Source of the DNA: Bacteriovoracaceae bacterium
Lineage (GTDB): Bacteria; Bdellovibrionota; Bacteriovoracia; Bacteriovoracales; Bacteriovoracaceae
Direction: 5' to 3'
DNA: 32,886 nt
Assembly: GCA_020631435.1 (NCBI GenBank)
Contig: JAHDHG010000009.1
Span: 1 to 32,886 of the forward strand
This document shows, piece by piece, positions 3,681 through 22,792 of the stretch. The position numbers and the translations under genes are program-made. Each line of letters begins with the position of its first letter. The stretch's first letter is position 1. The notes under the pieces are model-generated. The model was not told the DNA's origin. It ran no database searches and was given only the letters and a program-made list of their open reading frames with translations.

Positions 3681-3905
3681 ATGAAATTACTTATCGTTTT
3701 ATTGTTATCACTATCTACTTTTGCAAATTATCAAGAGATCAACACTCTTAGAAATGAAATCAATGATACAACAAATTCGAATTTAAAACTTTATAAATCT
3801 ACTTATCATGATCTATCTAAAGGTGAGTTAGAAAAATTAAGTAAAAAACTAAAAGATATTCATTCTATTTTAGAAAACAGATCCGAAGAAATTAAATATC
3901 AATAA
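3681..3905 (+). CDS. small secreted protein, unknown function
   Basis: ATG at 3681 (MKLLIVLLLSLSTFANYQE) preceded by TGGAGAAATT; signal peptide-like N-terminus. Confidence 0.55.
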   Translation: MKLLIVLLLSLSTFANYQEINTLRNEINDTTNSNLKLYKSTYHDLSKGELEKLSKKLKDIHSILENRSEEIKYQ

Positions 3906-4830
3906 TTCTACCTCTTTTCTTTGAATCTAATTCTTTAGGAAGATTACTTATAATTTCTTGTTCTAAAGCTTCGATTACTTCTTCTTTATAAAAAATCCTA
4001 GAAGAAACAATACTTACTTCTCGAACTGGATTTTGTTTTTCAAAATCCATCACTTGATCTTTTTTTTCTTTATTACTTAGACCTAAAGTACTTAGATAAG
4101 GAAGGACTGTATAACCTCCAGAAGTCCTGACAAGATTTTTCAAGACATCAAGGCTCCCTCCTTTGAATCTAACATTATCCAATACATTAATATCTTTTTT
4201 GATTCTACATAGATTTAATGTTTGAGACGCCAAGCAATGTCCATCTTCCATTAACCAAAGATCATCCATCACTAAATCGCTAATTTTTAAATTCTTAAGC
4301 TTGGAGAGCTTATGATTCTTTGAAGTAAATAGCTTTAAAGGTTCATGGAAAAGAACCCTCTCTATTATTTCATTATCTTTTAAAGGAGTTACTAAAATTC
4401 CTGCATCAATTCTATCTTCTTTTAAAAGCTTAAGAATATGCTCGGTTTGTAACTCGTTAATAATAATATTCAAATCTGGATATTTCTCAGAAAAACCTTT
4501 TAGAAATAGTGGCAACAAATTAGGAGCTAATGTTGGTATGATAGCAATTTTAAAGTCTCCTGAAATCTTTGAATTAGAATTTTTTAAATTCATCAAATTC
4601 TCTGCTTCATTAACTACTTTTCTTGCATGATGAATAATTTCTTCACCTCTTTTTGTGACAAGCATTGGCTTTTTTGATCTATCAAAAATAATTGCATCTA
4701 GCATTTCTTCAATTTTTTGGATTTGAATTGAGAGAGATGGTTGAGTTATAGAAAGCTCTTTAGCCGCTCTTCCAAAATGTTTATGGTGGCTTAAAGCGAG
4801 TAAATAGCGGCATTGGTCCAAAGTTATCAT
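3892..4830 (-). CDS. oxyR: OxyR, peroxide-sensing LysR-family regulator
   Basis: N-terminal LysR HTH (CRYLLALSHHKHFGRAAKELSITQPSLSIQIQKIEE); redox cysteine pair in MEDGHCLASQTLNLC, with the same spacing as E. coli C199/C208. ATG at 4830 preferred over the TTG at 4842. Confidence 0.92.
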   Translation of the reverse strand: MITLDQCRYLLALSHHKHFGRAAKELSITQPSLSIQIQKIEEMLDAIIFDRSKKPMLVTKRGEEIIHHARKVVNEAENLMNLKNSNSKISGDFKIAIIPTLAPNLLPLFLKGFSEKYPDLNIIINELQTEHILKLLKEDRIDAGILVTPLKDNEIIERVLFHEPLKLFTSKNHKLSKLKNLKISDLVMDDLWLMEDGHCLASQTLNLCRIKKDINVLDNVRFKGGSLDVLKNLVRTSGGYTVLPYLSTLGLSNKEKKDQVMDFEKQNPVREVSIVSSRIFYKEEVIEALEQEIISNLPKELDSKKRGRIIDI

Positions 4831-4841
4831 AGTTAATAACA

Positions 4842-4849
4842 ATTATAAT
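4842..4849. promoter_or_regulatory. candidate shared -10 region of divergent oxyR / ncRNA promoters
   Basis: self-complementary ATTATAAT gives a TATAAT hexamer on both strands (4844-4849 +, 4842-4847 -) in the 84-bp oxyR-ORF36 intergenic region; clear -35 not identified. Confidence 0.4.
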
Positions 4850-4863
4850 ATAGATTTAATTAA

Positions 4864-4883
4864 TTTCAACTATGTAGTTGGAA
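4864..4883. promoter_or_regulatory. 20-bp near-perfect dyad (possible operator or 5' RNA hairpin)
   Basis: TTTCAACTATGTAGTTGGAA: 9-nt arms, one T/G mismatch, central TG. Confidence 0.5.
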
Positions 4884-4914
4884 ATCATATATTAATTTCA
4901 AAGGAGATCAACAA

Positions 4915-5025
4915 ATGAAAATTAAAAATTATCTTAAATTTCTTATTAATAATAATTCAAACTCTAGAAATGAAGGCCCATACAGAACTTTCAACCCCTA
5001 TTACTTTTGGGTGTTTTATAAATAA
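4915..5025 (+). CDS. 36-aa small ORF at the head of the putative structured RNA (MKIKNYLKFLINNNSNSRNEGPYRTFNPYYFWVFYK)
   Basis: read directly from sequence; AAAGGAG Shine-Dalgarno 8 nt upstream of the ATG; below the length cut of the supplied ORF track. Confidence 0.5.
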   Translation: MKIKNYLKFLINNNSNSRNEGPYRTFNPYYFWVFYK

Positions 5026-5029
5026 TCTA

Positions 5030-6118
5030 TGCCCTTAAAGTGTGGATTGCCAATTATTAGATGCAAATTATAAGTGATACTCTTGAGTTGCAATCACTCT
5101 AAGTATTCGAAATCTATAGCAATTTAAAAATCACTTGAATCAAATTCTGCAGCTGATAAACTGATATTGATTTTATGCAGAGTGATCCACACCTTTACAA
5201 TCACTTGTCTAAAAGCTTTAAAGAAAACCACAGTTTAAGAAAAATCAACGAATGGAGTACAAGAAAACGTTTACACATCGCCAATTGGCTTTGTTCAAAA
5301 CGAAGAGAACGAAATTCAGATTAGAAAACACCGGTAGAGAAAAGCTTAAAGATAAGTTTGGATGGAATGAATCACGCATGTTCACAAAAGAAACGGTTTT
5401 CTCTAAGGAGAAGAAAGTTTTTAATCACGCACTTACAAAGGAAGACTCGAGGGAATATCAGGTTGATATTTAAAGAGAAAGACTTTAATAAGTGAATTCG
5501 GCAATTAAAAGTTTCATTGAAGATGAGACTTTAAGTTGGAACCAAGGAAGACTATAAAAGACTGACTTGGGTTTAAAGAAGTGATACTTAAGAGAAAGAC
5601 TTTAAAGTTAAAAGCTTTAAATACTGACTCATAATTTCAATTTTAGACTTTGGCCTAAAAAAGAAATTTGCACGTTAGAGTTTGAGAAGTAACGACTTCC
5701 AAATGAACACTTCTAGGGAAATGTAGATAATTGTGAACAGACAGAGATAGACTTCAAGAAGTTTAGATCTGTAGGTGATTGATGCCTCGATGGACACGAG
5801 CTAGTTGAATGGGAAAAATTAGTTGAAAGACTAAAATGACTCATGAGTTTGAAAGATCAACGAAAGCTGATCGGAAAGACTTAAAAAGAAATGACTATGA
5901 TCAAGCCGAGACTATAAGAAACGGGGAAGATGATAGGAAGGACTTAAAAAAAGTGATTGCCTTATCTGAATGCGGCACGTATTTGAAAAGTCTGAAAAGA
6001 CAGAGATAAGACAAAAACGAATGAGGAAATTGTTGATGCAGTAGCATGATTGCAATTTCTAGACTAGAGCAAACTAAAAAAAATAAGCCACTCTAATAAG
6101 AGTGGCTTTTTTTTAGTT
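5030..6118 (+). ncRNA. putative large structured non-coding RNA (~1.1 kb), class unknown
   Basis: no convincing ORF; consecutive stems readable by eye: 5036-5047/5185-5197, 5073-5078/5093-5098, 5146-5151/5176-5181, 5454-5460/5464-5470, 5508-5517/5523-5532, 5572-5578/5600-5606, 5633-5638/5663-5668 plus 5641-5646/5655-5660, 5686-5690/5695-5699, 5741-5772, 5855-5872 (GAAA loop), 5961-5967/6004-6010, 5990-6001 (GAAA loop); ends in a rho-independent terminator. Confidence 0.7.
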
Positions 6119-6119
6119 T
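6072..6119. terminator. bidirectional rho-independent terminator between the + strand RNA and - strand ssb
   Basis: CTAAAAAAAATAA GCCACTCT AATA AGAGTGGC TTTTTTTTAG: 8-bp perfect stem (6087-6094/6099-6106), A-run on the left and T-run on the right. Confidence 0.93.
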
Positions 6120-6209
6120 TTAATTAATCTGTGACTCTTGAAACATATTAGAAGCGGGGATTGTTTGGAATCAGACAAAAACTGCTTCATTTCTTTTCAA
6201 AAATTTTTA

Positions 6210-6662
6210 CTAAAACGGAATATCATCAGAAGCAAAACTTTCATCCGCTTGGATGTCATAAGTTGGCATTTCTGTATTATTGGTAGTTCCAGATGCATTT
6301 GTATTATTAGTAGCACCTTGAGAATTGTTTGGATTTGATCCAATAAACTGAACCTGATTACAAACGATCTCAGTCGTATACCTTTTGTTACCGTCTTTAT
6401 CTTCCCATTGTCTTGTTTGAAGTTTGCCTTCAAAATAGGCTTGTCTTCCCTTAGATAAATACTGGTTACAAAGCTCTGCTTGCTTTCCCCATACTACAAT
6501 TCTGTGCCATTCAGTTTTTTCGTTTCTTTGTCCTGAATTTTTATCAGTCCAATATTCAGATGTAGCAAGAGAAAAATTACATACTGCCGATCCATTTGGT
6601 GTGTATCTAAGCTCTGGATCAGTTCCTAATCTTCCTAGTAAAGTAACTTTGTTTACACTCAT
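6210..6662 (-). CDS. ssb: single-stranded DNA-binding protein
   Basis: [36 protein letters not shown]..., acidic tail ending DDIPF. Confidence 0.98.
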
Positions 6663-22715: not shown

Positions 22716-22792
22716 CGGGGTGTAGCGCAGCCTGGTAGCGTAACTCGTTTGGGACGAGGAGGTCGGAGGTTCAAATCCTCTCACCCCGACCA
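22716..22792 (+). tRNA. tRNA-Pro (anticodon TGG), CCA encoded
   Basis: CGGGGTG...CACCCCGACCA cloverleaf; anticodon loop TTTGGGA; T-arm GGAGGTTCAAATCCTC. Confidence 0.97.

Follow-up and report, generated by a model that had tools for sequence, protein, structure and literature searches.

A candidate structured non-coding RNA gene beside an oxyR-like gene, and a longer sibling near fusA, in two species of Bacteriovoracaceae

What occupies the interval of more than 1 kb that separates an oxyR-like gene from ssb, next to a photolyase gene, in a Bacteriovoracaceae bacterium? We examined this question in a window of 32,886 nucleotides (contig JAHDHG010000009.1, or C116) from a 2.43-Mb, 88%-complete assembly (GCA_020631435.1; hereinafter G000). 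The interval is filled by purine-rich sequence and, as was remarked in a preliminary description made from the sequence, lacks a credible long open reading frame (ORF), the longest being 73 codons. That description proposed a large structured RNA of no recognised class, divergent from oxyR and ending at a strong terminator with a U-run on the plus strand. The terminator is real (6085-6108 plus the U-run) and reads both ways; the divergent arrangement holds, and the LysR-family neighbor is indeed nearest to the OxyR models but falls below their cut-offs. The central proposal gains support from a fold that is kept in two species and from the lack of a match in Rfam. In our assessment, the locus very probably contains a gene for a structured non-coding RNA, denoted here RNA A, that has a sibling elsewhere in the genome; this assessment covers the identity of the predicted transcript as such an RNA and not the scaffold role considered below.

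The RNA A gene is predicted to span approximately positions 5168-6114 of the plus strand, that is, ~0.95 kb (Table 1). Pairwise alignment with the ortholog from a second genome (G002) places the beginning of the conserved unit, including the putative promoter, at ~5150 and the likely RNA start at ~5168, so the start at 4831 and the size of ~1.1-1.2 kb given in the preliminary description were too generous. A promoter consensus scan did not list the element at 5135-5162; its conservation, in particular that of the TGATAWWCT-GAT sequence, which is largely common to the promoters at the sibling locus of G000 and G002, suggests that it drives RNA A. The segment 4843-5025 appears as a separate small unit consisting of a ribosome-binding site and a 36-codon ORF. 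Within it, on the plus strand of 4900-5025, the strong ribosome-binding site AAAGGAG precedes the ORF, which ends in ...YRTFNPYYFWVFYK and is followed by a weak hairpin; the encoded peptide is rich in aromatic residues and resembles an attenuator leader peptide. This unit is not found in G002 and may be either a leftover of the start of a VOC gene (see below) or a leader peptide.

Table 1. Features of the RNA A locus (window coordinates) and of the sibling locus
Feature	Position	Strand	Description
LysR-family gene, oxyR-like	3892-4842	minus	Best NCBIfam models are OxyR, with scores under their cut-offs
Promoter-like element	5135-5162	plus	TTGAAT (5135-5140), 16 nt, TGA-TAAACT (-10 at 5157-5162)
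5'-end block TTGATTTTATGCAGAGTGATCC	5167-5188	plus	Likely RNA start; common to the sibling locus
5' rod domain	5198-5360	plus	Same rod in independent minimum-energy folds of both orthologs
Expandable interior	5387-5744	plus	Several hairpins plus recurring GACU motifs; largely missing in the ortholog (alignment, repeats, fold)
3' multibranch domain	5798-6070	plus	Closed by CTAGTT/GACTAG; several hairpins; same architecture in the ortholog fold
3' signature hairpin	6025-6060	plus	Apical ATGCAGTAGCAT at 6036-6047; last hairpin before the terminator
Intrinsic terminator with U-run	6085-6114	plus	Bidirectional, placed to serve the convergent ssb; present in the ortholog
ssb	6210-6662	minus	Convergent with the RNA A gene
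BC (sibling)	1996-6325 of L146, G000 contig C28	minus	4.3-kb non-coding region downstream of fusA

The homology search among relatives that the preliminary description had suggested identified an ortholog, at the same locus, in only one other species among 129 genomes of the family, namely, Bacteriovoracaceae MAG-111 (JAHDBN010000001.1; G002). The two sequences are 84% identical over 5153-5386 and 70-74% identical near the 3' end, and most of the segment 5390-5740 is missing in G002, where RNA A would be ~629 nt long compared to ~952 nt in G000. In the congeners G001 and G003, the gap between the oxyR-like gene and ssb is filled by a VOC/glyoxalase-family gene and a Dps-like ferritin gene, both divergent from the oxyR-like gene. 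These genes are gone from the locus in G000 and G002, with the window retaining at most their promoter and ribosome-binding region (4843-4915), upstream of the 36-codon ORF. The gene content of the congeners is compatible with the interval being a remnant of the lost VOC and Dps genes or else an mRNA for a small protein encoded by the 73-codon ORF (5252-5473), which is slightly longer than expected (13 of 200 shuffled sequences contain one as long), and the two orthologs keep a stretch of ~30 codons in the same frame. Yet tblastn detects no trace of either gene in the RNA A region, the ATG of the 73-codon ORF opens a different frame in the G002 ortholog, and the codon changes in the common-frame stretch, judged by eye, mostly alter the amino acid. 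Indels of 1-2 nt are scattered across the 84%-identical block, so that start codons and frames differ between the orthologs, and there is no match in Pfam. Thus, neither conserved protein coding nor gene decay, the readings that the preliminary description had set against an RNA, was found, and, the RNA structure being conserved, we regard both as very improbable. A phage or plasmid origin was rejected as well: phages gave no match to RNA A, viral contigs none to seven patterns, and plasmids one short terminator-like match only.

Folding of the plus strand of 5164-6060, without the terminator, yields -208 kcal/mol compared to -170.6 +/- 5.2 kcal/mol in dinucleotide shuffles (z = -7.2), and the G002 ortholog also folds below its shuffles (z = -2.7). 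The reverse strand beats the shuffles, too (z = -5.5), and therefore the strand cannot be fixed by folding energy alone but is indicated by comparison of the orthologs. As a control, the observed substitutions were shuffled randomly among the columns of the same alignment, upon which the pairs of the first sequence are mostly lost. In the 5' domain, 45 of the 49 pairs are common to both orthologs (6.2 +/- 6.8 in the controls, with 0 of 400 reaching the observed number), and in the 3' domain 28 pairs are (4.0 +/- 4.8; again 0 of 400). When the reverse strand is compared instead, 43 pairs are kept in the 5' domain and none in the 3' domain, so it is the 3' domain on which the strand call rests. 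The same domain contains three exact double-changed pairs, compared to 0.17 expected.

The 5' rod consists of ~11 short helices in a row, with purine-rich internal loops between them, and is capped by GCC-AATT-GGC. Many of the helices differ in sequence between G000 and G002 while remaining paired: CAA/TTG vs CAT/ATG; ACTTGTCT/AGATAAGT vs ACTT.TCT/AGA.AAGT; AAGCTTT/AAAGCTT vs AGTTTT/AAAACT; ACC/GGT vs CC/GG; GTTT/AAAC vs GGTT/AACC; and CGTTT/AAACG vs CGA/TCG. The rod further includes AATC/GATT, GAAT/ATTC, GT/AC, ACA/TGT and GCC/GGC. These compensations were read by eye from two separate folds, being hidden in the register of the MAFFT alignment; accordingly, RNAalifold applied to this alignment gave no signal for the 5' domain, which we attribute to the misregistered helices. 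The covariation throughout comes from one sequence pair per locus, and both species are represented by metagenome assemblies. In the 3' domain, the hairpin CTTATCT/AGATAAG is present in both orthologs but differs between them in its inner stem, GTCT/AGAC or TTGTT/AACAA. The stems listed in the preliminary description all exist in the window at their positions and fare differently in the comparison. The stem at 5990-6001 is retained by covariation (GTCT/AGAC vs TTGTT/AACAA in the ortholog); at the place of the stem at 5855-5872, the ortholog also has a hairpin, but a different one; and those at 5454-5470, 5508-5532 and 5633-5668 are beyond comparison because they lie in the interior that is absent from the ortholog.

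A second copy of the 5' block of RNA A, TTTTATGCAGAGTGATCC, is present in each genome, on contig C28 of G000 (with one mismatch) and at C31:114372 of G002. When the family genomes were searched with patterns and models, and genome contigs were scanned, the block was found identical or nearly so at only four places, the two RNA A genes and these two; in 125 genomes of the family, the model of the 5'-end sequence matched exactly these four (E <= 1.5e-17; next match, 5e-4). In both species, the second locus, here called BC, is a long non-coding region between fusA (EF-G) and a gene whose protein product is uncharacterised. As one transcript, BC would measure 4330 nt in G000 and 2535 nt in G002; in G000 it holds 92-93-nt tandem units, CACCG motifs and GAC-UUCG-GUC hairpins. 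The region ends in a terminator hairpin with ATGCAGTAGCAT at the tip, as in the last hairpin of RNA A, and its stem is compensated between the species (GGTCGCAA/TTGCGGCC vs GGCCGTTA/TAACGGCC). The signature motif ATGCAGWAGCAT is present in the G002 ortholog of RNA A and in the sibling terminator hairpin of both species, whereas all further sites in G000 and G001 are inside ORFs and G003 has none. Given these intragenic locations and the four strong places matched by the 5' model, a third family member was rejected; a weak match to the 3' model in G017 is a terminator just past an ORF that, by eye, is dihydrofolate-reductase-like.

Structure is kept in the 5' part of BC and in the parts C1, C2 and pre-3', on the strand that begins with the 5' block, and for the last three clearly better than on the opposite strand. 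In the pre-3' part (336 nt, 57% identity), there are 12 exact double-changed pairs, compared to 0.18 expected; none of 150 controls had more than 3. Part B3 (211 nt) shows no structure common to both species, and in the terminal 140 nt the structure comparison does not separate the strands. Taken as a predicted transcript, BC looks like a single structured RNA of 2.5-4.3 kb; it could instead represent two adjacent RNAs.

The sibling RNA, which has the same promoter and the same ends, adjoins fusA, so the adjacency of RNA A to the oxyR-like gene is probably incidental. This bears on the possibility that RNA A is a trans-acting regulator, either a long sponge or base-pairing RNA akin to OxyS or one that titrates an RNA-binding protein at repeated hairpins. 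RNA A is divergent, like OxyS, from an oxyR-like gene (with the qualification on the OxyR cut-offs made above), and GACUU and hairpin motifs are repeated in both A and BC. Against such a role, the promoter and ends are common to a locus that does not adjoin oxyR, and a conserved multibranch fold is unnecessary for a small regulator. OxyS is ~110 nt long; RNA A, at ~950 nt and with a putative promoter of its own that is also found at the fusA locus, is nine times this length, and the Rfam model of OxyS has no match in the window. Complementarity between A and BC extends over at most 12 nt, on which ground antisense pairing of the two was rejected, and, on balance, a regulatory function of this kind strikes us as rather unlikely, although it ranks next after the scaffold considered below.

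Two loci with common ends and different, variable interiors, one of them situated where congeners have the VOC and Dps-like genes, could also be viewed as a non-autonomous selfish or mobile RNA/DNA element, comparable to a degenerate intron or to IS200/IS605-type derivatives, whose conserved ends are mobility signals and which is now fixed at two sites. Exactly two copies were found per genome, however, at orthologous sites; the substitutions preserve base pairs; and neither the ORF lists nor a family search of some ORFs revealed a recognisable transposase or reverse transcriptase next to the two loci. Such an origin is, in our opinion, improbable.

Our preferred reading is that RNA A and BC, which share the promoter-like element, the 5' block and the 3' hairpin motif, are the short and the long member, respectively, of a two-gene RNA family, each presumably transcribed from its own promoter to its own terminator, with interiors of repeated hairpins that would grow or shrink between species (629-952 nt for A and 2535-4330 nt for BC). 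As for the role, our best guess, and a tentative one, is that the RNA is a multivalent scaffold of a ribonucleoprotein particle, perhaps including A and BC together: the conserved end domains would serve for docking or capping, and the hairpin repeats would offer protein-binding sites many times over. A scaffold would account for the combination of sequence conservation at the ends with length variation in the interiors. A bolder version, which we consider doubtful albeit conceivable, is that A and BC are the two components of a hitherto unknown RNA machine that belongs to a single bacterial genus; the end modules, which are conserved, and the hairpin arrays, whose length varies, would join with proteins to build a particle that resembles none described to date.

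If the proposed interpretation is correct, BC would be among the largest structured RNAs of bacteria, exceeding 23S rRNA in one species; to our knowledge, as far as limited searches go, no structured non-coding RNA longer than ~2.5 kb, other than rRNA, has been reported from bacteria, and literature searches for this lineage and for similar RNAs yielded nothing relevant. The finding would add another family of large structured RNAs, confined, in the genomes searched, to two species of one genus. The presence of the VOC and Dps-like genes at this site in related species suggests that such RNAs can arise or vanish within a genus, and rapid change of length with conserved ends would amount to a natural test of which segments of a giant RNA are important.

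How does RNA A relate to known RNA families? The cmscan search proposed in the preliminary description, run against Rfam 15 over 4800-6200 with permissive filters (E <= 10), assigned RNA A to no family, giving chance matches only, nearly all of which involve the terminator; the BC loci had no family match either. The absence of hallmarks of RNase P RNA and tmRNA, noted initially, was upheld. ARAGORN finds in the window only a tRNA-Pro and Rfam has no tmRNA match, so tmRNA was rejected; the tRNA-Pro (TGG; 22716-22792, plus strand) is the sole Rfam match in the window. Bacterial RNase P RNA resembles RNA A in being large and structured, and at first went undetected in G000, but RNA A has no match to RF00010. 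This model matched most relatives, with G000, G001 and G002 among the exceptions. In G000 and G002, a blastn search with the rnpB of a congener showed the canonical rnpB to be cut by contig ends, which is why it looks absent to the covariance model, and RNase P RNA was rejected as the identity of RNA A; rnpA is present. The rnpB fragments are at C71:46099-46268 in G000 and at the ends of contigs C24 and C13 in G002; in G001, an assembly that is 99% complete, rnpB was missed by both searches.

The closest comparison is with OLE, GOLLD and ROOL, which belong to the small group of large structured RNAs in bacteria whose function is unknown, with surprising architectures such as nanocages and dimers (PMC12286853). 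All three form RNA oligomers, and GOLLD is the largest of them, with many members exceeding 800 nt (PMC12286853). Like these RNAs, RNA A appears, here from sequence alone, to be a stand-alone, highly structured, non-coding RNA, of 0.6-0.95 kb. The covariance models of OLE, GOLLD and ROOL have no match in 4800-6200 or in the BC loci (E <= 10). Unlike them, RNA A and BC were found in two species of Bacteriovoracaceae only and would form a two-gene family with common termini, interiors of differing length and a long member of up to 4.3 kb.
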